This document shows positions 10,066-26,519 of a stretch of 29,114 nt of DNA, one piece after another. A program made the position numbers and the translations under genes. A model generated the notes under the pieces. That model worked only from the letters and a program-made list of their open reading frames with translations, was not told where the DNA came from and did no database searches. Origin of the DNA: a bacterium. GTDB lineage: Bacteria; Elusimicrobiota; Elusimicrobia; UBA1565; UBA9628. The stretch's first letter is position 1, and the number at the start of each line of letters is the position of its first letter. The stretch spans positions 1 to 29,114 of the forward strand of contig JAJYOT010000021.1 in assembly GCA_021796015.1 (NCBI GenBank), written 5' to 3'.

Positions 10066-10218
10066 TTAAACATCCGGCGGCTCGAAGCTTTTTAAAATTT
10101 CCAACAGGTTTATTTCCATTAGATTTAGATTTCCCGTAGTGTCCAGATTTTGACGGCGGAAACAGCCTTTCACGGCCTTTAATTGCGCGATTGTCCTGGG
10201 TCCTTTGCCGTCCGCCGT
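10066..10218 (-). other. Open frame in the intergenic gap, possible gene remnant or small ORF
   Basis: The gap 10048-10316 has no convincing complete gene. On the minus strand a 50-codon open stretch ends at a TAA (10068-10066) and begins just after a TAG. It reads like protein in its last 30 codons (NLDTTGNLNLMEINLLEILK), with possible GTG and ATG starts giving 35 or 17 residues. No ribosome binding site stands out and the other side is the promoter region of the + strand gene. It may be chance, a small protein or a decayed gene end. Confidence 0.15.
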
Positions 10219-10255
10219 CTAGGACTTTTGACCCATGTGGGTTTTCCCAGGCGGT

Positions 10256-10264
10256 TGCTAGAAT
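10256..10264 (+). promoter_or_regulatory. Extended -10 promoter element
   Basis: TGCTAGAAT fits an extended -10 (TGn plus TAGAAT). No -35 hexamer is well placed. It would start transcription near 10271, giving a leader of about 46 bases before the ATG at 10317. The core GCTAGAAT recurs before the tRNA and, as GCTATAAT, before two other genes in this window. Confidence 0.4.
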
Positions 10265-10316
10265 AGATATGATGCGCTGTCAGGCGCTGAAATCGTATGA
10301 AGAGGTAAAAACAGAA

Positions 10317-10850
10317 ATGAAAAACGTGAAAGCTCAAGTCGTTGCCGCTCTTTTTGGGGTGGGAGTGATTTTTCCGCTTCGAGCGCGAGCGGACCAGTGG
10401 GCTCCGACGAATATCCCAGCGACGGTCGCGGGGCTTAAGACGGCAGCCTCCAAGGCGGCCAGATCGAATCAAGCCAAACCGGTCTTGGTTTCGGCCGCAG
10501 GCGGCGGTTCCTGCATTATTTCTAATCCCGGTGTCATGAAGGTATATGGAGTCTGGTATTTTGGCGGGAAGGATTGGCAGGAGGATGAGACAGCGCACTA
10601 TTCGATTCCCATGGAAGCATGGAACAAGGCGCATAAATCAATGCTGGAAGCGATTCGACGTCTTAAAGCTACCGGTTATTCCATTGTTGAGGCCCACATT
10701 CTTGGCGACGAAGAAAACAGCTCTGGTGGTAGTGGTTCTATTGTGACTAAAAACCAGGTGGGTAGCCTAGATCCGAACGGTGAGTGCTACCAGTACGTCA
10801 TTTACTATACCGTCTCTTTAAAAACATTATCCCAATTATGCAGTAAGTAA
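10317..10850 (+). CDS. Secreted protein of unknown function
   Basis: Unrecognised protein of 177 residues. ATG 10317 gives a clean signal peptide (MKNVKAQ, hydrophobic core, then ARADQW with likely cleavage after ARA), and AGAGG at 10301-10305 precedes it. In-frame ATG codons at 10269 and 10272 would give an acidic, atypical n-region and are less likely. The mature part has a Gly/Ser stretch before its first cysteine (GGGSC), a GVWYFGGKDWQEDE segment, a helical middle, a GSGG linker and two cysteines near the end. Three cysteines in total would leave one unpaired. It stands alone between a putative promoter and the mtaB promoter region. Confidence 0.7.
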   Translation: MKNVKAQVVAALFGVGVIFPLRARADQWAPTNIPATVAGLKTAASKAARSNQAKPVLVSAAGGGSCIISNPGVMKVYGVWYFGGKDWQEDETAHYSIPMEAWNKAHKSMLEAIRRLKATGYSIVEAHILGDEENSSGGSGSIVTKNQVGSLDPNGECYQYVIYYTVSLKTLSQLCSK

Positions 10851-10897
10851 CGCGGTTTAAGACCCAGATGGGCGCGTGAGGGAGTTTTCTCGTGTTC

Positions 10898-10930
10898 CGC
10901 CGCTCGTTTATTTTGATCCGACGAACGGCG
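10898..10930 (+). other. Imperfect inverted repeat upstream of mtaB
   Basis: A ten-base arm (CGCCGCTCGT, 10898-10907) pairs with ACGAACGGCG (10921-10930) with one C-A mismatch and a 13-base loop. No T-run follows, so it is a poor intrinsic terminator for the upstream gene. It may still slow or end transcription, or act as an operator. The rest of the 140-base gap holds only the -10 element at 10976. Confidence 0.25.
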
Positions 10931-10975
10931 CCTTGAGGCTGTCGTCCTCGGCGAAGTTTTTAAGGGCGCGAGAAA

Positions 10976-10983
10976 GCTATAAT
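10976..10983 (+). promoter_or_regulatory. -10 promoter element for mtaB
   Basis: GCTATAAT contains a perfect TATAAT at 10978-10983. Transcription would begin near 10990, at or one base before the GTG start at 10991, predicting a leaderless mRNA; no Shine-Dalgarno sequence is present. No clear -35 box is seen. Confidence 0.45.
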
Positions 10984-10990
10984 TTATTAG

Positions 10991-12241
10991 GTGAAAGCGT
11001 TTTTTAAGACCTATGGTTGCCGGGTCAATCAATACGAGACCGAAGCCCTCAGGGAAAAATTAACCAAGAACCGCTTCGCGGAGGTTTCGGATAATTTCGC
11101 CTCGGCGGATATTTGCGTTATCAACACCTGCACGGTGACTGAAGAGGCTGATCAGGATGCTTTGCGTCTCATTCGGAAAATTTCCCGCAGAAACCCATTG
11201 GCTCGGTTGGTAGTCACTGGATGCTTGGCTTCCCGCAGTCCGGAAATGATTCAAAACGCCGCTCCCCAGGCCTTGATTGTCGGCAATAAGGATAAGGAAA
11301 ATATTCCCGCCTTAATTGGTTGCGGCCTTGCCCCGGCGCCGTCTTCCATCAGCGGGTTTTGGGGACACTCCCGCGCTTTTATCAAGATTCAAGACGGCTG
11401 CGACATGGGATGTTCTTTTTGCATTATTCCCTCGATTCGCCCGCGATTATTCTCTCGTCCTTTTCAAGAGCTTAAGATGGAAATTGAAGGCTTGATTCAA
11501 AATCGTTGTCCTGAAGTGGTCTTGTGCGGGATTCGACTGGGACGATACCTTTCTCAAGATTTAGAGGGAAGGCGAATTGATTTTGTGGGGCTTTTAGAAC
11601 GTTTGATTCAAATTCCAGGAGATTTTCGCATTCGACTTTCTTCTCTTGAAATTACCGACGTGACGGATCGCTTTATCAATTTATTCGCGAGTTCTGAGGG
11701 AAAAATAGCGCCGTCGCTTCACCTTCCTCTTCAAGCGGGATCAGATAAAACCTTGAAAGAAATGAAGCGCTGGTATACGAGCGATTTTTTCCGAAAACGC
11801 CTGAAAGCTTTGCGTGAAAAAATTCCTCATTGCGCGGTTTTTAGCGACGTGATGTCGGGTTTTCCCGGGGAATCTGAAGCGGATTTCGAGGAAAGCTTGA
11901 ATTTCATTCGCGAAATGAAGTTCGCCGGCCTTCACCCATTTAGATATTCCGCGCGTCCTGGAACCGAAGCGGAAAAAAGGTCCGATCAGCTCACGGAAAA
12001 AACAATTCTTGCGCGCGGGCAAGAATTACGTTTATTGGATCGCCGCTTACGGACTCAATTTGCGGCTCATTCGCTAGGAAGCAAGCGTCGGGTGGTCGTC
12101 GAAGGGCGTCCGGGAAAACCTGAGGGCCTTTGCGAAGATTTTCTGAGCGTATCTTTAGATCGCTATCCCGGCCCCGGTTTTGCCTGGGTTCGGGTTCATT
12201 CGTTAAAAGACGAGATGGCCTTCGCCGAAGTTTTAAAATGA
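10991..12241 (+). CDS. mtaB: tRNA t6A37 methylthiotransferase, MtaB type
   Basis: Radical SAM enzyme of the MiaB/MtaB family that adds a methylthio group to N6-threonylcarbamoyladenosine at tRNA position 37. The UPF0004 N-terminal domain has its three cluster cysteines (C10 in TYGCRVNQYETEA, C47 in NTCTVTEEAD, C78 in VTGCLAS). The radical SAM CxxxCxxC is C137, C141, C144 in GCDMGCSFCIIP, and a TRAM-like C-terminal domain follows (about 355-416). The YGCRVNQYETEA motif and length of 416 favour MtaB over MiaB or RimO. GTG 10991 is the only start that keeps the N-terminal motif, and it appears leaderless. The stop overlaps the next gene as ATGA. Confidence 0.9.
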   Translation: MKAFFKTYGCRVNQYETEALREKLTKNRFAEVSDNFASADICVINTCTVTEEADQDALRLIRKISRRNPLARLVVTGCLASRSPEMIQNAAPQALIVGNKDKENIPALIGCGLAPAPSSISGFWGHSRAFIKIQDGCDMGCSFCIIPSIRPRLFSRPFQELKMEIEGLIQNRCPEVVLCGIRLGRYLSQDLEGRRIDFVGLLERLIQIPGDFRIRLSSLEITDVTDRFINLFASSEGKIAPSLHLPLQAGSDKTLKEMKRWYTSDFFRKRLKALREKIPHCAVFSDVMSGFPGESEADFEESLNFIREMKFAGLHPFRYSARPGTEAEKRSDQLTEKTILARGQELRLLDRRLRTQFAAHSLGSKRRVVVEGRPGKPEGLCEDFLSVSLDRYPGPGFAWVRVHSLKDEMAFAEVLK

Positions 12242-17827: not shown

Positions 17828-18781
17828 ATGTTGACTTTACTTAATCTTGAAGATTCGGTCGAGCGGGTTCGGCTCGGCATGGAAAACCGCTCAAAGCGCT
17901 TGTCCGGCCGCGTGGGAGAAACCCTGGCCGGATACGTCGGTCGCCCGGGGAAAATGCTGCGGGCGCGCTTTTGCCTGCTATTGGCCAAGGCCTTGGGCGT
18001 GGACGAGAAAAAAGCGGAGGCGGCCTCCCGCGCGATGGAATTTGTTCATAACGCTTCTCTTTTGCATGATGACTGCGTCGATAAAGCCGACACCAGGCGG
18101 GGACAGGCGACCCCGAACGCTCTTTATGGAAACACAGTCGCTCTCCTTTTGGGCGATCTCGCTTTTTCCCAAGGACTTGAGGAAGCCATCGACATCTCTC
18201 CGCGCGCGCCGGAACATTTGGTAACGACGGTTCGGGAAATGGCGGCCGGGGAACTGCAGGAAGAGTTTTTGAAGGGAAGCACCGAGGTTTCGGTTGAGGC
18301 GTATTTAGGAATTGCCGCCCGGAAGACCGGCGCTTTGTTTGAGTGGTGCGGAAAAGTTCTCTCCGAGATAAGCCCCTTTCCCCATGAGTCGGCCGATCCT
18401 CCGAGGCTTTCCTTATCGGCTGGAATCTTGCTTCAGATCGTGGATGATATTCATGATTTTCTCCTGACCGAGGAAGTTTCGGGGAAGCCGGCGGCCCAGG
18501 ATTTAATGAACCGCCGTTTGACCTTGCCTTGTATTCTCGCGCTTCAAAATCCGAAAACCCGAGGAAGTTTTCTGGACTTATGGGAACGCGGCGAAACCGA
18601 CTCAGACGCGATCAAAAAGGCGATTTCCTTTGTTAAGGCGGAAGGATTCTTGGATGAGGCTAGAACTAAGGGCCGAGAAATCGTCGATTCCATGAAAACT
18701 CTCTGCCAGGGCCTGCCTTTGAAAAACGAAGCGAAGGATTTGTCCTTTTTTATCGAAGTGATGGCCAAGCGAGAATTTTAA
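17828..18781 (+). CDS. Polyprenyl diphosphate synthase
   Basis: Trans-prenyltransferase that condenses isopentenyl diphosphate with an allylic primer. The first aspartate-rich motif is D81-D-x-x-D85 (LLHDDCVD), followed by the R-R-G of ADTRRGQ. The second is D206-D-x-x-D210 (QIVDDIHDF), and the GRPGKMLRAR start block is typical. It is 317 residues long; chain length cannot be told from sequence here, although the residues before the first motif (NASLLHDD) lack bulky aromatics, compatible with a long product. It is the first gene of a coupled operon and overlaps the PqqD-like gene as TAATG. With a UbiA-family enzyme three genes on, it most likely supplies the prenyl donor for that enzyme. Confidence 0.92.
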   Translation: MLTLLNLEDSVERVRLGMENRSKRLSGRVGETLAGYVGRPGKMLRARFCLLLAKALGVDEKKAEAASRAMEFVHNASLLHDDCVDKADTRRGQATPNALYGNTVALLLGDLAFSQGLEEAIDISPRAPEHLVTTVREMAAGELQEEFLKGSTEVSVEAYLGIAARKTGALFEWCGKVLSEISPFPHESADPPRLSLSAGILLQIVDDIHDFLLTEEVSGKPAAQDLMNRRLTLPCILALQNPKTRGSFLDLWERGETDSDAIKKAISFVKAEGFLDEARTKGREIVDSMKTLCQGLPLKNEAKDLSFFIEVMAKREF

Positions 18782-19221
18782 TGTCGTACCAATCTCTTCT
18801 TAAGAAAGCTTGGAAGTCGGGGGATTTTGCCGTATCGGAAGAAGACGCAAATTCTAAAGACGCATTCAACGTTCAAAACCGCGAAAACGTGCGGCGCGAA
18901 CTTGAGGAAATCATCGAAAGAGAAGCGGCGGACGCGTCCGCGTGCTTGGCCGCATCAAAGGGAGGAGTTATGAAATTAGCGCCGTTTGTGAAATTTAGAG
19001 AAGAGAAATTTGGAGCGGTTCTTTTTGAAACGCGTTCCGAGAAAGTTTACACCTTAAGCCCGACAGGCGCGGCGGTCGTTCGCGAGATCATCGCCGGAGC
19101 CGATTCCTCGTCATTAATTGGAAAACTTAAGGAAAAATACGAGGATGCGGGGGGGAACATGGAGAAAGAAGCCGTGGGCTTTTTGACCGATCTCAAAGGC
19201 AAGGGCCTCATCGTCGAATAA
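18781..19221 (+). CDS. PqqD-family peptide chaperone with N-terminal extension
   Basis: The C-terminal 83 residues look like a PqqD/MftB-type RiPP recognition element: KLAPFVKFREEKFGAVLFET, then a YTLSPTGAAVV strand-helix block and a final helix LTDLKGKGLIVE. Such proteins bind the leader of a precursor peptide and present it to a radical SAM enzyme. The first 63 residues are a charged extension not seen in ordinary PqqD proteins (about 90 residues). ATG 18781 overlaps the previous stop as TAATG, but a second in-frame ATG at 18970 has a strong GGAGG just before it, so a short PqqD-only form may be the main or an additional product. The stop overlaps radical SAM 1 as TAATG. Confidence 0.8.
   Translation: MSYQSLLKKAWKSGDFAVSEEDANSKDAFNVQNRENVRRELEEIIEREAADASACLAASKGGVMKLAPFVKFREEKFGAVLFETRSEKVYTLSPTGAAVVREIIAGADSSSLIGKLKEKYEDAGGNMEKEAVGFLTDLKGKGLIVE
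18961..18965 (+). promoter_or_regulatory. Strong internal ribosome binding site in the PqqD-like gene
   Basis: GGAGG, within AAAGGGAGGAG, lies four bases before the in-frame ATG at 18970. Initiation there would yield an 83-residue protein that is exactly the PqqD domain. It is among the strongest Shine-Dalgarno sequences in the window. Confidence 0.5.
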
Positions 19222-20198
19222 TGGCCTCCATAGCCCAAGTTAAGGAAACGGGCGAGTCCGTTTCTTCCGAGGATTTAGGCGCGCCCCTTTACGTCGCCTG
19301 GCAGATTACCAATGAGTGCAATCTTGCTTGCCTTCACTGCATCGAGGAATCCGGCCCGGGAAAAGCCTTTAAAGACGAGTTGAGTAAAGACGAGGCTTTT
19401 TCCATCATCGATCAATTGATTGCCGGACAGGTGCCCTACGTTTCTTTTTCCGGCGGAGAGCCGATGGTCCACCCGCATTTTTTCGAGATGGTCGAAAGAA
19501 TCATTAAGGGTGGGGTAGGTCTTAAAATCGAGACCAACGGTCACTACCTGACTCCGGAAAATTGCAAACGCCTTAAGGCTCTCGGGGTTAAGGCCGTCCA
19601 GGTGTCTTTAGACGGGGCCAATCCCGCGTCTTTTAATAAGATGCGGATTCACGGGCGCTTTGAATCAGCTACCGAGGGAATTAAAAATCTAGGCATTGCG
19701 GGCGTGCCGATTGAGATTAATTTTGTTCCGGCGAAATTTAACATCAAGGAAATTTCCGAGGTCGTGGACTTGGCATATAAACTTGGAGCTTACAGTTTCT
19801 ATACCGGAAAAATCATGTATACCGGCAACGCCGTCAGGACTTGGAAAATAACCGCGCCCGACGACGCCGATTACCCGGCGTTTTTTGACGCCTTGCGCGC
19901 CAAATCCAAGGAGTATGAAGGCCGAATGAGGGTTTACTTTCACGAGATGGGACTTTTGGAAGAGCTCAAGTATCGCCTGGAAAATCCGGCGGCTCTCTTC
20001 ATCATTTTGCCCAACGGAAAGGTCAAGCTCATCAACGCCCTTCCTTTTGTCTGCGGAAATTTGCGAAGCCAGTCCCTGGGCCGGGTGTGGAAGCATTTTC
20101 AAGAAGCCTGGAAAAACCCGAAGGTTTATGGTTTTGTTCAAGAACTGGAAAAAGATCCGACCGTGGTGTCGAAACTTCATAAATGGGTCGAGGTTTGA
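19221..20198 (+). CDS. Radical SAM protein 1 (PqqE/MftC-like, degenerate SPASM)
   Basis: Radical SAM enzyme of 325 residues with CxxxCxxC at C33, C37, C40 (NECNLACLHC), the SAM-binding FSGGEP, and later ETNG and VSLDGA strands. The tail (about 255-325) has the layout of a SPASM domain (LPNGKVKLINALPFVCGNLR, then SLGRVWKHF), but only one cysteine remains, so it probably lacks auxiliary iron-sulfur clusters. It is about 40% alike by eye to the proteins at 21114 and 22270. The gene follows the PqqD-like gene with TAATG overlap, as in PQQ and mycofactocin clusters, which suggests a peptide substrate. The reaction cannot be deduced. The next gene starts on the base after its stop. Confidence 0.88.
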   Translation: MASIAQVKETGESVSSEDLGAPLYVAWQITNECNLACLHCIEESGPGKAFKDELSKDEAFSIIDQLIAGQVPYVSFSGGEPMVHPHFFEMVERIIKGGVGLKIETNGHYLTPENCKRLKALGVKAVQVSLDGANPASFNKMRIHGRFESATEGIKNLGIAGVPIEINFVPAKFNIKEISEVVDLAYKLGAYSFYTGKIMYTGNAVRTWKITAPDDADYPAFFDALRAKSKEYEGRMRVYFHEMGLLEELKYRLENPAALFIILPNGKVKLINALPFVCGNLRSQSLGRVWKHFQEAWKNPKVYGFVQELEKDPTVVSKLHKWVEV

Positions 20199-21110
20199 GT
20201 GTCTGAAGCGGCTACGGCTCAGCGCGCGGGCGTTTTAAGTGCGCCGCTCCGCGTTTTTTCCCTGATTCGCTATCGTTTCTTTCTCTATGCGGGGCTTCTT
20301 CCCTATCTTTTGGGTTCCGCCTGGGCCTACGGCATGGAGAAAACATTCTCGCTTCATTTGTTTTCTCTGGGGCTTTTCGGGATTTTTCTTTCTGTCGTTG
20401 GAGTCGAGTCTTTTAATGAATACTTCGACGCCCGCATGGGGACTGATCGCGTCTTTAATCCTTCCGATGATGAATATATTCCGGAGTGGATGTTGTGGTT
20501 GGGAATTGCGGCCTTTGCGGTCGCGGCCACGGTGGGGTTTTATCTGTCGAAATTCGGAGGACTCCCCGTCATCGTTTACACCCTACTCGGGGGTCTTGCC
20601 GCGCTTTTTTATGTGGGTCCGCCCATTCGTTGGGTTTACCGGGGAATGGGAGAACTCATGATCGGCCTTTCCTACGGACCCTGGATGACCTTGGGAAGTT
20701 TAGCGCTCTACACCCATCATTTTTCCCGAGGGGCTTTGGCGGCATCGTTAGTGCCCGGGCTCTTAATCATGTCCTTGGCCGTCGTCAACGCCATTCCGGA
20801 TTTTTATCAAGATCGCTTGGTTGGGAAACGGAACCTCGTCGTAAGATTGGGAAGAAAAAACGGCGTATTTCTGTATTTAGGCCTTTCCGCCTTGGGACTT
20901 GCGGTTTCAGTTGGAGGAGCGGTTTTAGGCGTTTTTCCCAAAGGCGCTTTCTTTGCGGCCTTGGCCGGGTTTCCATTTTGGATGCTCAGCGCCAAAACGG
21001 CTTTAAACGCCTGGGATAGCCCGCGCCTGTTTATTCCGGCTATTAAAAACATCGTTTTGTGTTATTTGGTCGCGACTTCGGTCTTTACGCTGAGCTTGAT
21101 TGTTAAATAA
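20199..21110 (+). CDS. UbiA/MenA-family prenyltransferase
   Basis: Integral membrane enzyme (303 residues, about eight to nine hydrophobic segments) that transfers a prenyl chain to an aromatic acceptor. The first metal-binding motif is N73-EYF-D77-x5-D83 (SFNEYFDARMGTD) and the second is D201-xxx-D205 followed by GKRNLVVRLG; both match the MenA branch of the family. No other menaquinone genes are in the window. Its place between two radical SAM genes, in an operon that starts with a polyprenyl synthase, suggests the acceptor is the product of the radical SAM chemistry, perhaps a modified aromatic residue. GTG 20199 directly follows the previous TGA. A plain quinone-pathway enzyme cannot be excluded. 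Confidence 0.9.
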   Translation: MSEAATAQRAGVLSAPLRVFSLIRYRFFLYAGLLPYLLGSAWAYGMEKTFSLHLFSLGLFGIFLSVVGVESFNEYFDARMGTDRVFNPSDDEYIPEWMLWLGIAAFAVAATVGFYLSKFGGLPVIVYTLLGGLAALFYVGPPIRWVYRGMGELMIGLSYGPWMTLGSLALYTHHFSRGALAASLVPGLLIMSLAVVNAIPDFYQDRLVGKRNLVVRLGRKNGVFLYLGLSALGLAVSVGGAVLGVFPKGAFFAALAGFPFWMLSAKTALNAWDSPRLFIPAIKNIVLCYLVATSVFTLSLIVK

Positions 21111-21113
21111 AAA

Positions 21114-22079
21114 GTGAAAATTTTTGAACTATCGGCTCCGAGTTTTGTCGCCTGGCAAATGACCCGGGATTGCAACCTCGCATGCCTCCATTGCTGTACT
21201 GATTCCGCGCCCCATAAGCCTTTTCCTAACGAACTAAATCGCGAGGAGGCTTTGTCGATCGCTTCCCAAATAATCCAAGCCCAGGTTCCCTATGTTTTAT
21301 TGGCTGGGGGAGAGCCCTTAACCGTCCCACATTTTTTTGAAGTCGCGGAGGCTTTGGGCCGAGGTGGAGTTTACCTTAAAGTCGAAACCAACGGACAAAT
21401 TTTCGGAGAAAATGAGGCGGAGAGGCTTTCGCATTGGCCGATTCGATCCCTTCAAATTTCAATTGATGGAATGACCCAGGCAGTTTATTCGAAAATGCGG
21501 CCCGGGGGAGTTTTGGATAAAACCCTTTCCGCCTGCCGCGCGGCGCGAAAATTCAATCTCCCGCTTGAAATTACCTTTGCCCCGACTCAAATCAATATCG
21601 CGGAGGCGGAAGCGGTCATTGACTTGGCTGCGAGTCTCGGGGCTTTTCGTTTTAACAGCGGAAGCTTGATGAGAATCGGGACCGCCGCAAAACTTTGGGA
21701 CAGGCTCAATCTCTCTTTTTCGGAATACGAAAAATTTTATAATCTGCTTGAGAGAAAAGAAAAAGAATTGGCCGGAAAGATGGAAGTTACATTTAGGCCG
21801 TTTTCCATCGAGGAAGATTTAAAGACAAAAAAAGGGGCTATGCCCGCGACTCTTTTAATTTTACCGGATGGGCGCGTTCGAGTGTCGGGTTTTTTACCGT
21901 ATACCTGCGCCGATTTGAGAAAAGAAAATTTGATTCAATCTTGGAGGATGTGCCAAAGGGCCTATCAAAATCCTAAGATATCTTCAGGTTTTGATGAGAT
22001 TCTCAAAGACAATTCGGTTTTGGCTTTGGCGAATCACTTGAAGCCTTTGGAAGAAAGCGATTTGCCGGCAATGGTCTGA
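21114..22079 (+). CDS. Radical SAM protein 2 (degenerate SPASM)
   Basis: Paralogue of the radical SAM proteins on either side (321 residues). CxxxCxxC is C20, C24, C27 (RDCNLACLHC, followed by another Cys), with LAGGEP for SAM binding and ETNGQ and ISIDGM strands. The SPASM-like tail (LPDGRVRVSGFLPYTCADLR) retains one cysteine at the expected place and another in RMCQRAY, too few for a normal SPASM cluster set. The GTG start at 21114 lies three bases after the UbiA stop with no evident ribosome binding site, so translation is probably coupled. A 71-base gap follows, then the candidate precursor peptide. The exact reaction is unknown. Confidence 0.86.
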   Translation: MKIFELSAPSFVAWQMTRDCNLACLHCCTDSAPHKPFPNELNREEALSIASQIIQAQVPYVLLAGGEPLTVPHFFEVAEALGRGGVYLKVETNGQIFGENEAERLSHWPIRSLQISIDGMTQAVYSKMRPGGVLDKTLSACRAARKFNLPLEITFAPTQINIAEAEAVIDLAASLGAFRFNSGSLMRIGTAAKLWDRLNLSFSEYEKFYNLLERKEKELAGKMEVTFRPFSIEEDLKTKKGAMPATLLILPDGRVRVSGFLPYTCADLRKENLIQSWRMCQRAYQNPKISSGFDEILKDNSVLALANHLKPLEESDLPAMV

Positions 22080-22085
22080 CCGAAC

Positions 22086-22154
22086 ATGGTTGAGGGAATG
22101 CCGCTTCCAGTGTTCGTAGGATGGCGGCGAGCCGGCACGAAGGAGAAAGAATGA
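22086..22154 (+). other. Possible 22-codon leader ORF and hairpin before the precursor gene
   Basis: In the 71-base gap, an ATG at 22086 opens a 22-residue frame (MVEGMPLPVFVGWRRAGTKE plus two) that ends in ATGA overlap with the precursor start. It has no clear ribosome binding site. The same gap can fold: GCCGC 22100-22104 with GCGGC 22124-22128, extended by TCC 22106-22108 with GGA 22119-22121 around a ten-base loop. Either could tune precursor expression, or both could be chance. Confidence 0.25.
22140..22145 (+). promoter_or_regulatory. Ribosome binding site of the precursor peptide gene
   Basis: AAGGAG lies five bases before the ATG at 22151. In an operon where most genes rely on overlapping stops, this strong independent site supports the short ORF being real and highly translated. 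Confidence 0.6.
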
Positions 22155-22273
22155 ACGACCAAAAAAACGTGAGCGAGGGGGCGAAAGCCTCGAAAAAGCT
22201 CGTCTGGGAAACTCCCAAAATGGAAGAGGTTTCCGAGCGGGTGATGGCGCAGCCCTACATTCGGTTCACGTGA
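22151..22273 (+). CDS. Candidate precursor peptide for radical SAM modification (40 aa)
   Basis: Short gene encoding 40 residues. The N-terminal half is polar (MNDQKNVSEGAKASKK) and is followed by LVWETPKMEEVSERVMAQPY and the end IRFT. The W19-x-x-P22 motif after a lysine pair, then alternating acidic and hydrophobic residues, resembles PqqA and other peptides bound by PqqD-type chaperones. Near the C-terminus Q34, P35, Y36 and F39 offer possible modification sites; in PQQ and mycofactocin the acted-on residue is a tyrosine at a similar position. AAGGAG precedes the ATG, and the stop overlaps the radical SAM 3 start as GTGA. No homologue is claimed. It could be a regulator instead, but size, motif and context favour a precursor. 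Confidence 0.72.
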   Translation: MNDQKNVSEGAKASKKLVWETPKMEEVSERVMAQPYIRFT

Positions 22274-23256
22274 CTCACGAGAGGGGGGCGCGGATTGCAG
22301 ATTATAGCGCTCCCCTCTTTCTTGCTTGGCAGTTGACCAACCGTTGCACCTCTTTTTGCCTTCATTGTTGCGAGGAGTCCGGCCCGGACAAGGCCTGGAA
22401 AAAGGAGCTTTCCAAAGAAGAAGCGCTGAGCTTGTCTTGCCAGATCGTTGAATTAGGAATTCCCTATGTCGCTTTCGGAGGCGGAGAACCGCTTTTAGTT
22501 GAACATTCTTGGGATGTTTTTGAGATTTTAAGCCGCGGTGGAACTCAAATTAAAATCGAGACCAACGGGCTTTTCATCGACAAGGCGGCTATTGAACGCT
22601 TGAAACATCTTGGAATTTCCTCCATTCAAATCAGCGTCGACGGTTCAACTCCGGAAATTCATGAGCGCGTTCGCCCCAGCGGATCCTGGAAGAAAGCCGT
22701 CAATTCTCTAAAGGCCTTATCCGAGGCCGGGCTTGAGCCGGAATTTGTTTTCGTGCCGAACCGATTGAATGTGGAAGATGCCGTTTCGGCTTATGAGTTG
22801 TCCGCTGAACTAGGCGCTCGCCTTTTTGTGACCGGCCCCATGATGCGCTTGGGCCGGGCCGCGGCGGCCTGGGAGCGTTTGGGGGTTTCGGATAAAGAGT
22901 GGCAAGAAACGCTTCAAAAAATTAAAGAGCGGGCCGCTTCTATGGGAAATCCGGTCAGGATTTCGGCTTACCCTTGGGACATTCGGCGGGAAGCGATAGT
23001 GAGACTTCAAAATCCGCAGTCGATGGTCTTGGTCGTTCCCGATGGTAAGGTGAAACTTCTCAATGCTCTTCCTTTCTACGCGGCCGATTTAAAGAAAGAT
23101 AAACTCGACCTCGCTTGGAAAAAAGCCGTTGAGGCTTGGCGTTCGCCTGTCGTCAAGAAGTTTGTAGAGGGGATGCAGGACAATCCCGCTCTTTTACTTC
23201 ATGCCAATGAGTGTTGGGATTCTTGGGATGAATTAAAACAAGCCGATCAAAGATGA
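22270..23256 (+). CDS. Radical SAM protein 3 (degenerate SPASM), coupled to the precursor
   Basis: Third radical SAM paralogue, 328 residues. CxxxCxxC is C26, C30, C33 (NRCTSFCLHC, then Cys), with FGGGEP, ETNG and ISVDGS motifs. In the SPASM-like tail (VPDGKVKLLNALPFYAADLK) even the single cysteine kept by its paralogues has become alanine; only one cysteine (NECWDSW) remains near the end. GTG 22270 overlaps the precursor stop as GTGA, so the two are translationally coupled, the closest pairing in the cluster. This makes it the best candidate to act directly on the peptide. The stop overlaps the caspase start as ATGA. The reaction type is unknown. Confidence 0.88.
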   Translation: MTHERGARIADYSAPLFLAWQLTNRCTSFCLHCCEESGPDKAWKKELSKEEALSLSCQIVELGIPYVAFGGGEPLLVEHSWDVFEILSRGGTQIKIETNGLFIDKAAIERLKHLGISSIQISVDGSTPEIHERVRPSGSWKKAVNSLKALSEAGLEPEFVFVPNRLNVEDAVSAYELSAELGARLFVTGPMMRLGRAAAAWERLGVSDKEWQETLQKIKERAASMGNPVRISAYPWDIRREAIVRLQNPQSMVLVVPDGKVKLLNALPFYAADLKKDKLDLAWKKAVEAWRSPVVKKFVEGMQDNPALLLHANECWDSWDELKQADQR

Positions 23257-24800
23257 ATCCTCGGACTTTTTCACTTTTACTTTTCATTTCTTTCTTCCTG
23301 TCGCGCGGGGCCTTAGCGGGCCTTAATTCTAATTTTTTAAGCGCTGTTTCAAATGGAGATTTGTCTGAAGCGCGGAGACTTGTTTCTCAAGGCGCTTCCG
23401 TTAATGCCGCTAACTCTTCGGGAGACACGGCCTTGATGGAAATAGCTTCCGGTGGACACACGGATATGCCGCAATTATGGAGAAATACCAACTTCATCGA
23501 ACCTACATTTCAGTTTCCAAAGTTTCGCCCGATGAGCGTTTCGGTTGCTCCTTCTCAAGAGGGAATGCTCATCGCTGGTTTTCTAATCCGGCATGGGGCG
23601 GATGTCAATTTACAGAATAAGTATGGACATACCGCCTTAATGCTGGCCGCAAAATATGGACAAGCGGATTTAGTGAGAATTCTTTTGAAACATGGCGCGA
23701 GGGTGGGAATGCGCGATAACAACGGACATACGGCCTTGGATTATGCCTATCAGATGGAGCATCAGCAGGTTGCGGCTTTAATCGAGGATTACCGTCTTCA
23801 TCCGCCCTCTTTTGGCGCCCGTCGTGATGTAGAACGCTTGTCGGGCCGGAATTTGTCAAAGGAAGAAATGACCCGCATCGCTTCTCGCGTCGCGGAAGAG
23901 GCTCAAAATTCAACTCAGAAAAATATCGCGCATCGCTTGGATGTTTTAGCCAAAGAAATTGAAAGCCTTAAAGAGTCAAAGAAGGCCAAGAACCCTCCCG
24001 AGATTAAAAGCGACGTGGACAGGCCCGATTATCATAGTTCGGTTAAGCCTGATGATTTTGCGATAGTCGTCGGCGTTCAAAAATATGCCGGAAGCGTTAT
24101 GCCTTCTGAATTTTCTCAGCGAGACGCTATAGCCGTTCAAAAGCATTTTTTTGCTTTGGGTGTTCCCGAGGAGCATCTGCGTCTTTTGCTTAATGAGAGG
24201 GCGACTAAAAGCGATCTTGCGGCTTATCTGGAAGATTGGTTGCCTAAAAATGTCAAAAAAGATTCCCGCGTCTATTTTTATTTTTCTGGGCACGGCGCTC
24301 CCAACCCGGACACCGGAGAGGCTTATTTAGTTCCCTTTGACGGTAATCCAGAATTTTTGAGTAAGACCGCCTATCCCTTAAAAAAACTTTATCATGATCT
24401 TTTGAAAATTTCTGCCCATCGCGAGATCGTCATTTTAGACTCCTGTTTTTCCGGGGCGGGACCGCGTTCAATTATTCGTCCTGGTCTTCGCCCCCTTGCG
24501 ACTCATCTTAACTCCGGCTTTGTTCCCGGAAACGGCAGAATTGTCGTCTTGACCGCCGCAGAGGACAATCAAACCGCCGAAGTAATTCAAAGGCAAGGCC
24601 ACGGGCTTTTGACCTATTATTTTTTGCGCGGTCTTAATGGAAAAGCCCTTAATCAACTCAAACGCGTGACTATGGGTTCTCTTTATGATTATCTTTTGCC
24701 CGAGGTTGAGTCCCAGGCGGATTTAAAAAACCATTCCCAGAATCCCCAGCTTTTGCCAAGGTCTGTTCGCGCGAAGATTTTTCCTGTTGTTTTGCGGTAA
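23253..24800 (+). CDS. Exported ankyrin-repeat caspase-like (C14) protease
   Basis: Protein of 515 residues with a signal peptide (about 1-22, ending GALA), ankyrin repeats (about 25-60 and 95-165, e.g. NKYGHTALMLAAKYGQADLV), a charged coiled-coil-like linker (about 180-250) and a caspase-fold domain (about 262-500). The catalytic dyad is H347 in FSGHGAPNPDTGEAYLVP and C398 in ILDSCFSGAG. Family C14 enzymes cut after Asp or, in metacaspases, after Arg/Lys; the specificity here is unknown. ATG 23253 overlaps the radical SAM 3 stop as ATGA, so it belongs to the same operon. A role in processing or sensing the peptide product outside the cytoplasm is inference. The neighbouring ankyrin protein at 24839 may be a partner. 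Confidence 0.88.
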   Translation: MNPRTFSLLLFISFFLSRGALAGLNSNFLSAVSNGDLSEARRLVSQGASVNAANSSGDTALMEIASGGHTDMPQLWRNTNFIEPTFQFPKFRPMSVSVAPSQEGMLIAGFLIRHGADVNLQNKYGHTALMLAAKYGQADLVRILLKHGARVGMRDNNGHTALDYAYQMEHQQVAALIEDYRLHPPSFGARRDVERLSGRNLSKEEMTRIASRVAEEAQNSTQKNIAHRLDVLAKEIESLKESKKAKNPPEIKSDVDRPDYHSSVKPDDFAIVVGVQKYAGSVMPSEFSQRDAIAVQKHFFALGVPEEHLRLLLNERATKSDLAAYLEDWLPKNVKKDSRVYFYFSGHGAPNPDTGEAYLVPFDGNPEFLSKTAYPLKKLYHDLLKISAHREIVILDSCFSGAGPRSIIRPGLRPLATHLNSGFVPGNGRIVVLTAAEDNQTAEVIQRQGHGLLTYYFLRGLNGKALNQLKRVTMGSLYDYLLPEVESQADLKNHSQNPQLLPRSVRAKIFPVVLR

Positions 24801-24838: not shown

Positions 24839-25753
24839 TTAGTGAATACTTGCCTCGGGATGAGAGAAGATCCAGTTCTTGATTATGGCGGCGATTTTGG
24901 GAGACGAGGCCAGGTTTTCAGCGGTAAATCCATGTTTGTCCGTGGCATTGACATTGGCCCCTGCTTTTAAAAGAGGTTCAATCACTTTAGCTTCGCCTAG
25001 CATGGCAGCGGTCATGAGCGGTGTATTGCCAATATTATCCTTGGCATTGACGTTGGAACCTGCTTTAAGAAGAGGCGAAACCACATTGGCTTTGCCAAGA
25101 ATGACGGCATCGATTAGGGCGGTATGGCCGTTTTTATCCGTGGCATTGACATTGGCCCCGGCTTTAACAAGAGGTGTAATCACGCTGGCCTGACCGAAGC
25201 CAGCCGCGATCATGAGCGCGGTATTGCCGTCTCTATCCATGGCGTTAATATCAGCGCGGGCCTTGGCCAAGATAGAGATTACGTTTGCATGACCATTCAT
25301 GGCGGCGCTCATTAGTGCGGTCCTTCCAGTTCTATTTTTGACATTGACCTTGGCCCCGGCTTTGATAAGGGTTAAAACGACATTGGCGTGGCCTTTTTCA
25401 GAAGCATAAATGAGCGCGGTATTGCCCAGTTTGTCCTTAGAATTGAGCTTGGCCCCGGCTTTAATAAGACATAGAACTACATCGGATTTCCCGAGCATGG
25501 AGGCATACATGAGCGCGGAAAGTCCGTCTTTATTAGTTATGTTTACATTCGCCCCGGCCTTAAGAGCTTTCTTGACTTGAGCGATGTTTCCATTGTAAAC
25601 CGCGGAGATCAGCCTATGATTTTTATCCGCTGCTCTGGTTTTCCCAACACAGAGAAGCGGAAAAGCCAAGACTAAGATTAAAAGTTTAATATTTGATTCA
25701 AGGTGGGCGCGTCCTTTTCTTAAGAATCTATTTTGCGATAAAGAAAATCTCAT
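24839..25753 (-). CDS. Exported ankyrin-repeat protein
   Basis: Protein of 304 residues with a hydrophobic export signal (about 20-41, ending KTRA) after a long basic n-region, then seven to eight 33-residue ankyrin repeats of the regular form NTALMxAAxxGxANVIxxLL-KAGANVNA-DKxG and a short C-terminal cap. Ankyrin repeats bind proteins; there is no catalytic domain. Start ATG 25753 is preferred over an upstream reading from 26029, which would cross the divergent gene and carries no recognisable domain. A promoter with a 17-base spacer ends seven bases before this ATG. It converges on the ankyrin-caspase gene, 38 bases away. Repeats are similar enough at the DNA level for internal recombination. 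Confidence 0.88.
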   Translation of the reverse strand: MRFSLSQNRFLRKGRAHLESNIKLLILVLAFPLLCVGKTRAADKNHRLISAVYNGNIAQVKKALKAGANVNITNKDGLSALMYASMLGKSDVVLCLIKAGAKLNSKDKLGNTALIYASEKGHANVVLTLIKAGAKVNVKNRTGRTALMSAAMNGHANVISILAKARADINAMDRDGNTALMIAAGFGQASVITPLVKAGANVNATDKNGHTALIDAVILGKANVVSPLLKAGSNVNAKDNIGNTPLMTAAMLGEAKVIEPLLKAGANVNATDKHGFTAENLASSPKIAAIIKNWIFSHPEASIH

Positions 25754-25759
25754 GGGAGT

Positions 25760-25788
25760 AGTGTAAGAGATTTCTGCTCTAAAAACAA
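25760..25788 (-). promoter_or_regulatory. Promoter of the ankyrin-repeat gene, likely leaderless
   Basis: On the minus strand TTGTTT (25788-25783) and TACACT (25765-25760) are separated by 17 bases. The predicted transcription start, seven bases after the -10, is the A of the ATG at 25753. No Shine-Dalgarno sequence is present. Confidence 0.55.
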
Positions 25789-25800
25789 GAGTTGGGTACA

Positions 25801-25829
25801 TTGACAAAGGCCCAAACTCGGCGCATAAT
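25801..25829 (+). promoter_or_regulatory. Promoter of the cysteine-rich protein gene, likely leaderless
   Basis: TTGACA (25801-25806, perfect -35) and CATAAT (25824-25829) are separated by 17 bases. The predicted start site, seven bases on, is the A of ATG 25836. There is no Shine-Dalgarno sequence. This is the best sigma-70-type promoter in the window. Confidence 0.65.
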
Positions 25830-25835
25830 GATTTC

Positions 25836-26519
25836 ATGAGAAAATTCGCCCTTATCCCAGCCTCGGCGGTTTTGATGGGAAGCGCTTTAGTTATCTTGTC
25901 CAGGGCCCAACAGTTCCCAACACTCAATGGGCAGGTTTCTGGATACCAAACCGATAACACCGAGGTTGATTTTTCGAGGCTGAAAAATAATTTCACCCAT
26001 AATGATTCCGTAAAATCCGTTTCCGGCAATCAGTTCGAGGTTTCTCAGCCATCCGTGCGCGCGCCGACCGTGCGTTCGGCTTTTCATGGAGGCTTGTCCG
26101 GGGAATACGTTGCGGGAGACGTGATTTCCTCGCCCAACCCTCCATCGCCGCAAGACTCGGGGACGAATACTTCTTGTTCCATTGAGCGATGCGTTGAGTG
26201 GAACTCGAAAATTTGCGTGAGAAACGGGGTCATCCACTGCGAGGCCTCCTATTCCGCTCTTGCGGAAGAAGAACTCGAGAGTGTGTGTAAGCCAAAATGT
26301 AAAAGCCGGTGTCGAGAGAGCGAACACGCCGGCTTTTATCGGGGATCCTGCCAAAAAGACTGTTTGAATCATTGCCTTCAAAACGACGCCGCTTATCAAA
26401 AATCCCTGAATCTCGGTAAACAATGTGAAGCGAAGATTCAAAAAGACCAGGAACTTCAGCAGGAATGTTTTTATCAGGCGCGGTATGGTTGTAAGGAAGG
26501 AACAGATTCGTGCTCTTAA
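25836..26519 (+). CDS. Secreted cysteine-rich protein of unknown function
   Basis: Unrecognised 227-residue protein. An N-terminal signal peptide (MRKFALIP, hydrophobic core, cleavage probably after SRA) is followed by a low-complexity polar region (about 25-110) and a cysteine-rich C-terminal half with 14 cysteines from C114 to the last residues. Spacings such as CKPKCKSRC and CQKDCLNHC suggest a compact disulfide-bonded or metal-binding fold. An even cysteine count fits periplasmic or extracellular disulfides. It has its own strong promoter and is divergent from the ankyrin protein. Its stop overlaps the stop of the convergent glycosyltransferase gene by three bases. Confidence 0.72.
   Translation: MRKFALIPASAVLMGSALVILSRAQQFPTLNGQVSGYQTDNTEVDFSRLKNNFTHNDSVKSVSGNQFEVSQPSVRAPTVRSAFHGGLSGEYVAGDVISSPNPPSPQDSGTNTSCSIERCVEWNSKICVRNGVIHCEASYSALAEEELESVCKPKCKSRCRESEHAGFYRGSCQKDCLNHCLQNDAAYQKSLNLGKQCEAKIQKDQELQQECFYQARYGCKEGTDSCS

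Follow-up and report, generated by a model that had tools for sequence, protein, structure and literature searches.

The respiratory isoprenoid quinones that we know of are built from chorismate, 4-hydroxybenzoate or homogentisate, and the redox cofactors pyrroloquinoline quinone (PQQ) and mycofactocin are matured from short ribosomal peptides. A 29,114-nucleotide stretch of an Elusimicrobiota genome (contig JAJYOT010000021.1, assembly GCA_021796015.1; hereafter the window) carries an operon that joins features of both groups, with genes for a polyprenyl diphosphate synthase, a PqqD-like protein, a UbiA-superfamily prenyltransferase, a 40-residue peptide, three radical S-adenosylmethionine (SAM) enzymes and an exported caspase (Table 1). 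A first-pass annotation had suggested either a lipid-anchored, peptide-derived cofactor or a prenylated signalling peptide as its product; the former appears likely, as a PqqD/radical SAM/peptide unit in the style of PQQ and mycofactocin is joined here to isoprenoid chemistry. We favour, with moderate confidence, the reading that the product of the operon is an isoprenoid redox lipid, most probably a lipoquinone of respiration, derived from a ribosomal peptide that is matured and prenylated. Beyond the earlier annotation, the present analysis ties the cluster to respiration and to the absence of known quinone pathways. No such pathway was found in searches of one open-access library, subscription papers and preprints lying outside its scope.

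The peptide gene is real: AAGGAG stands 5' of its 40 codons, 452 relatives were found at E <= 1, and a profile search related 2,668 of 3,431 candidates to it at E <= 0.01. Among 232 distinct top-scoring peptides, taken from the best 120 of each list of relatives, 229 end in MAQPYIRFT, two have one residue changed and one is unrelated there. In the window and 77 fetched loci, this single protein tail with its stop codon is written in 52 different DNA sequences. Since the loci were fetched with the patterns [RQ]VMAQPYI and W[EQ][TK]P[KSC][ML]E[ED]V, the identity of the tail across them is partly a matter of selection, although RFT and the stop codon belong to neither pattern. Such a constant tail is as expected of a cofactor and suggests one.

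The 77 loci, to which the window is added wherever 78 are given, were scored for gene presence by tblastn. The peptide, PqqD, radical SAM and UbiA genes are all present in 64 of them (radical SAM in 74, UbiA in 69, PqqD in 64), and in ten of the 13 incomplete loci the peptide lies close enough to a contig end that the lacking genes would be cut. By record title, the hosts are Elusimicrobiota, unnamed bacteria, alpha-, beta- and gammaproteobacteria (including Rhodopila globiformis, Rhodovibrio sodomensis, Rhodothalassium salexigens, Acidocella and Acidiphilium), Planctomycetota, Lentisphaerae, Omnitrophica, a deltaproteobacterium and one Ktedonobacter, with no archaeal title among the 77. Two gene orders occur: (polyprenyl synthase)-PqqD-radical SAM 1-UbiA-radical SAM 2-peptide-radical SAM 3, and peptide-PqqD-radical SAM 1-UbiA with a single radical SAM gene. 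Of 68 UbiA-bearing sets of open reading frames (ORFs), the window included, 55 have radical SAM 2 and 3, 11 have radical SAM 1 only and two fit neither arrangement. A same-strand polyprenyl synthase is found in 32/77 loci, all titled Elusimicrobia or just "bacterium".

A single sample of 198 Elusimicrobiota genomes, drawn from a larger group, contains 17 with the peptide, and exactly these 17 have radical SAM 1; operons that keep the radical SAM genes and lack the peptide, which the first-pass annotation had named as evidence against its proposal, were thus not encountered in this sample. MqnC of the futalosine route to menaquinone (E <= 1e-40) was detected in nine genomes, six of them over the cut-off, with zero overlap with the peptide genomes, and MenB was over its cut-off (343 bits) in none of the 198, relatives at E <= 1e-40 (141-179 bits) being confined to three genomes, two of them peptide-bearing. 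The complex I gene NuoH is present in 17/17 peptide genomes and 9/9 MqnC genomes, compared with 88/198 overall. The heme-copper oxidase gene COX1 is present in 14/17 peptide genomes versus 11/181 others (Fisher p 2.5e-12, uncorrected for kinship), and in 7/9 MqnC genomes. Because the peptide and MqnC sets do not overlap and share NuoH and COX1, they behave as alternatives, and the cluster seems to take the place of the known quinone routes in certain oxygen-respiring bacteria.

Known quinone pathways were also searched for in 23 cluster-bearing genomes, most of them drafts, including that of R. globiformis; Rhodovibrio (L035) lies outside this set. MenD, MenB and MqnC were each over the cut-off in 0/23, and MqnA/D was found in 0/23 at E <= 1e-10. 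Sub-cut-off MqnC-like proteins occur in 8/23, and identities were assigned to the best MenB-like and MqnC-like proteins of R. globiformis and to CofGH of G020. A real MenB in R. globiformis was rejected, as the candidate scores 464.7 bits to BadI (cut-off 467.6) versus 318.8 to MenB; its neighbours look like acyl-CoA genes, judged by eye from ORF starts only. A real MqnC was likewise rejected in R. globiformis and a Kiloniellales metagenome-assembled genome, where CofGH is over the cut-off.

All 27 of 27 cluster UbiA members matched MenA (1,4-dihydroxy-2-naphthoate prenyltransferase) models, and the motifs NxxxD and DxxxD are kept, with N73, D77, D201 and D205 conserved; the window protein scores below every MenA cut-off (92 bits vs 264) and by score falls outside that family. 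In R. globiformis, five UbiA homologues were found: CtaB, UbiA, BchG and a HAD-type UbiA, all over the cut-off, and the MenA-like protein of the cluster. The extra UbiA of GR16-43 resembles the HAD-type UbiA, judged from its first residues. Seven of nine Elusimicrobiota cluster genomes have exactly two UbiA homologues, that of the cluster and one other, which is located no more than a few kb from COX1 in four of the seven and is CtaB by model in G001; in the Lentisphaerae and Omnitrophica genomes, the UbiA of the cluster is the only homologue. The first-pass annotation had also named, as evidence that would refute it, a UbiA enzyme shown to be the sole MenA of its genome with an ordinary quinone substrate. 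In the two genomes with every UbiA homologue assigned, R. globiformis (five) and G001 (two), the cluster enzyme is the sole MenA-like protein, and no ordinary pathway is over threshold there.

These observations bear on cultured purple bacteria, among which Rhodothalassium contains menaquinone. R. globiformis is reported to make menaquinone-9 (PMC12542754), and its membranes are described as containing menaquinone by high-performance liquid chromatography, with one menaquinone placed from density at the QA site of a 2.24 A structure (PMC9640540); menaquinone-10 is reported for Rhodovibrio (PMC7179689). With the other candidates of this draft genome eliminated, the cluster is left as the strongest candidate for the origin of the menaquinone of R. 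globiformis. No Men or Mqn gene is over the cut-offs in Rhodothalassium either, so that neither Rhodopila nor Rhodothalassium has a known quinone pathway over threshold, Rhodovibrio being outside the search. One tentative extension, to which we give rather low odds, is that the tyrosine of MAQPYIRFT becomes the ring of menaquinone or a menaquinone-like quinone, which would explain the menaquinone of all three genera. Menaquinone itself as the product is doubtful, because 16/17 Elusimicrobiota hosts lack UbiE/MenG and a further MenA-like protein is encoded in Rhodothalassium.

The PqqD-like protein has its PqqD/RiPP recognition element (RRE; RiPP, ribosomally synthesized and post-translationally modified peptide) part at residues 64-146, preceded by an N-terminal helical extension. 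Its predicted structure (predicted local distance difference test, pLDDT, 75.6, the N-terminal part weaker) finds its closest PDB counterparts in TfuB1 and TbiB1, both with leader peptides, and in PqqD, indicating that it likely binds the peptide leader. The locus thus combines the features of RRE-guided radical SAM RiPP systems, namely a peptide beside its maturase, an RRE and a CxxxCxxC maturase related to peptide enzymes. Under the lipoquinone reading, the PqqD-like protein would bind the 40-residue peptide by its leader, WxxPxxEEVS, after which radical SAM 1 would modify MAQPYIRFT, most likely at its sole tyrosine, Y36, as PqqE does on PqqA, with radical SAM 2 and 3, where present, tailoring the peptide further. 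A peptidase would then release an aromatic piece, to which the MenA-like UbiA would add a polyprenyl chain supplied by the synthase, and the product would be reduced by complex I or Nqr and pass its electrons to the oxidase branch. A peptide-derived, prenylated respiratory quinone would account for the invariance of the peptide tail, for the presence of an RRE and a MenA-like enzyme, for the association with oxidases, for the lack of detected known pathways, and for the nearby nqr and START-domain genes described below.

Several observations weigh against this interpretation. Three loci (L043, L064 and L067) are true exceptions, lacking the full core without a contig end to explain it. Three of the 17 peptide genomes have no COX1, and four genomes (G084, G119, G177 and G194) have COX1 without the peptide or MqnC, through draft gaps or another pathway. 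UbiE/MenG (E <= 1e-25) is present in 9/9 MqnC genomes versus 1/17 peptide genomes, the single-radical-SAM genome G023, and the Elusimicrobiota product is therefore probably not finished as ordinary menaquinone. Sub-cut-off MenD-like and MenB-like proteins each occur in 18/23 cluster genomes, and the MenB-like protein of G018, whose identity is unassigned, reaches 286 bits. The hosts are often Proteobacteria that also make ubiquinone; in Rhodothalassium salexigens, the UbiA homologues besides that of the cluster are CtaB, UbiA, BchG and the second MenA-like protein (L085:9168-10160), which is flanked by a NapC/TorC-like cytochrome on one side and a RatA-family protein on the other. Additional UbiA homologues of unassigned type are carried by G008 and G009 (2/9 Elusimicrobiota) and two Planctomycetota genomes. 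The best NCBIfam match of radical SAM 1 and 2 is the heme b synthase AhbD (133.5 and 106.9 bits vs a cut-off of 500). Draft genomes prevail in the sample, and related genomes are not independent. Finally, what is read directly from sequence is the gene set, its conservation, the failure to detect Men/Mqn genes in the genomes searched and the association with respiratory complexes; from these we infer the whole of the chemistry, where the peptide is modified, that prenylation follows release and that the product is a quinone.

The rival explanation that survives best, though we hold it improbable, is a membrane-anchored, peptide-derived redox cofactor bound to particular enzymes, a prenylated analogue of PQQ or mycofactocin, rather than a mobile quinone pool. 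It would fit the design shared with both systems (RRE, radical SAM maturase and short peptide) as well as the ubiquinone genes already present in proteobacterial hosts, UbiA being over the cut-off in R. globiformis and Rhodothalassium. However, it leaves unexplained why no other quinone pathway is detected in the respiring, cluster-bearing Elusimicrobiota, and why the cluster follows nqr genes. Nqr reduces quinone. A set of six genes arranged as nqrABCDEF lies 5' of the cluster in L063, each scoring best to an Nqr model (B and D over the cut-off; the A-like protein also has RnfC-like 4Fe-4S motifs), with a 153-residue ORF of no family between nqrF and the peptide. The same nqr set occurs in L046 (titled Planctomycetota) and the later nqr genes in L061, which like L063 is titled uncultured bacterium. 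COQ10 binds coenzyme Q, and seven loci of Proteobacteria (L030, L040 and L049-L053), three of them Rhodopila, carry a gene for a START domain of the COQ10/RatA type (PF03364) near the cluster. Nor is any partner enzyme common to most loci: the most shared clusters of non-core ORFs are present in only 18, 16 and 14 of the 78 loci, not every neighbour being annotated, and the first of these is a purH-like gene.

Somewhat less probable still is that the peptide serves as a scaffold or regulator, the radical SAM enzymes building a quinone or naphthoquinone head from a free metabolite and UbiA then prenylating that head. The closeness of UbiA to MenA, whose acceptor is a naphthoate, would be in keeping with this, as would the menaquinone reported in R. 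globiformis (PMC12542754, PMC9640540) and the sub-cut-off AhbD matches of radical SAM 1 and 2. However, an RRE together with a peptide of leader and constant tail usually marks the peptide as the substrate, and the structure predicted for radical SAM 1 (pLDDT 89.9) is nearest, among solved structures, to SkfB and PqqE, both peptide maturases. Across 66 ORFs of this enzyme, CxxxCxxC lies within the first 80 residues in 63, one further cysteine (C278) is conserved and no SPASM cysteine set was seen. Radical SAM 3, with at least 2,038 relatives among 7,999 scored candidates, matches the mycofactocin maturase MftC best (103.3 bits vs a cut-off of 265); as all best NCBIfam scores are below the cut-offs, radical SAM 1-3 stand outside any named family.

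A prenylated signalling peptide or an ordinary RiPP natural product is quite unlikely: prenylated RiPPs and short exported peptides do exist, but the tail is constant across phyla and identical in 229/232 top-scoring peptides, no non-core ORF cluster occurs in more than 18/78 loci (not every neighbour being annotated), and the cluster is associated with oxidases. Chance neighbourhood of two unrelated pathways in one operon is the least credible explanation, since, although the caspase shows that passengers do join, all four core genes co-occur in 64/77 loci in two gene orders, and in 198/198 genomes the peptide and radical SAM 1 are either both present or both absent, counts that largely refute it.

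Table 1. Genes of the operon in the window, and the START-domain gene scanned as a representative of those near other clusters
Product and putative role	Position	Strand	Evidence
Polyprenyl diphosphate synthase, probable source of the prenyl tail	17828..18781	+	PF00348, 156 bits
PqqD-like RRE protein, likely leader binder	18781..19221	+	PF05402, 36.7 bits
Radical SAM 1, predicted core maturase	19221..20198	+	PF04055, 87.7 bits
UbiA-superfamily prenyltransferase, MenA type	20199..21110	+	PF01040, 68.8 bits
Radical SAM 2, predicted accessory maturase of the three-radical-SAM type	21114..22079	+	PF04055, 69.5 bits
Precursor peptide, 40 aa	22151..22273	+	leader WxxPxxE(E/D)VS, tail MAQPYIRFT
Radical SAM 3, predicted accessory maturase	22270..23256	+	PF04055, 85.1 bits
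Exported ankyrin-caspase protein	23253..24800	+	PF00656, 40.9 bits, plus ankyrin repeats
START-domain gene, scanned by Pfam as representative	L050:11077-11568		PF03364

The ORF list and Pfam confirmed the eight genes of the first-pass annotation in position and strand. Its description of an unbroken run applies to six junctions, which are overlaps or gaps of a few bases (-1, -1, 0, +3, -4 and -4 bases in gene order), but not to the junction 5' of the peptide gene, fifth in order, where a gap of 71 bases forms the sole loose one. A hairpin in this gap was rejected, as six stretches were folded and no significant RNA fold was detected (z -0.23 in the window). Membership of the caspase in the conserved unit was not upheld either: a same-strand homologue occurs in only 5/77 loci, plus the window, and the ankyrin-caspase gene, rejected as a pathway member, is probably a passenger. 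On the opposite strand, an ankyrin-repeat protein (24839-26029) neighbours the caspase gene, only one of the two having the caspase domain.

Other neighbours of the cluster were also considered as pathway genes. Ten shared ones were identified by Pfam as purH-, ligA- and nusB-like genes, a class I/II aminotransferase, a regulator kinase, PPK2, a MarR-type regulator, DUF4279, the START-domain gene and one without a match; the Elusimicrobiota neighbours common to 7-18 loci were rejected as housekeeping or unclear. Mur ligases adjoining L072 and L075 were rejected for want of a general link. In addition, V/A-ATPase subunit genes lie upstream in L073 and a methyltransferase gene downstream in L069.

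Some loci have peculiarities of their own. L043 is a second, partial copy of the cluster with its own peptide, on the contig (JADGRP010000208.1) that carries the complete cluster of L030, and the Planctomycetota peptide at L067:7234-7299 has no core gene found on either side within 15.5 kb. In L001, a 500-residue ORF (10214-11716), perhaps an insertion, lies between the peptide and a full radical SAM 3 and is preceded by a partial radical SAM 3 match. L032 is labelled Bordetella parapertussis and comes from a metagenome bin of about 5 Mb, and the label is probably wrong. The Elusimicrobiota rows share the N-terminal helical extension of the PqqD-like protein (window 18781-18969, about 63 residues), which most other rows lack or have in a different form. 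In a close relative, radical SAM 2 (G006:C7:36782-37714) has one stop within the match. This genome (G006) and G005, to which loci L004 and L001 belong, respectively, are part of the phylum sample of the complete Elusimicrobiota genome CP096137, and the loci nearest to the window include an Elusimicrobia record (L003), in agreement with an Elusimicrobiota host. UbiE/MenG-like proteins, some under the cut-off, occur without MqnC, the peptide or an over-cut-off MenB in 13 genomes (G027, G051, G053, G068, G080, G102, G108, G133, G140, G141, G163, G173 and G196), possibly reflecting yet another quinone route.

If the lipoquinone reading is true, a quinone made from a ribosomal peptide would give a central bioenergetic molecule a new origin and join RiPP cofactors to the membrane electron chain. 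It would also explain respiring bacteria without known quinone genes and would make MAQPYIRFT a cheap genomic marker of the pathway. The proposal can be tested directly in cultured purple bacteria whose quinones have already been measured.

Among known systems, the menaquinone pathways (Men and futalosine/Mqn) resemble the cluster in pairing a MenA-like prenyltransferase with a polyprenyl synthase, and the cluster appears to replace Mqn in the respiring Elusimicrobiota set; they differ in their MenB, MenD, MqnA/D and MqnC, each over threshold in 0/23 cluster genomes, and in UbiE/MenG, present in 1/17 Elusimicrobiota hosts. The ring of caldariellaquinone derives from tyrosine. Like the proposed product, this compound of the Sulfolobales is described as a respiratory isoprenoid quinone (PMC10821996), but it is archaeal, and none of the 77 cluster loci bears an archaeal title. 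Mycofactocin (MftA/MftB/MftC) shares with the cluster the plan of a peptide-derived redox cofactor with an RRE and a radical SAM enzyme, and radical SAM 3 is closest to MftC, albeit below the cut-off; against the MftC model, radical SAM 1-3 score 132.8, 96.8 and 103.3 bits (cut-off 265), which places them outside the mycofactocin family. MftA ends in Val-Tyr, whereas the cluster tail ends in RFT, the operon has no gene of the MftD/E/F type, and prenylation is predicted. PQQ (PqqA/PqqD/PqqE), itself a quinone cofactor, likewise rests on a short ribosomal peptide, an RRE protein and a radical SAM maturase, and PqqA has W, P and Y at a spacing like that of the cluster peptide. No PqqB or PqqC appears among the Pfam results for the eight genes, and radical SAM 1-3 reach 77.4, 55.3 and 56.6 bits against the PqqE model (cut-off 381), also outside that family. 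The cluster further differs from PQQ in that its peptide has no ExxxY, M replacing Glu in MAQPY, and in the prenyltransferase that accompanies the peptide in 69/77 loci.

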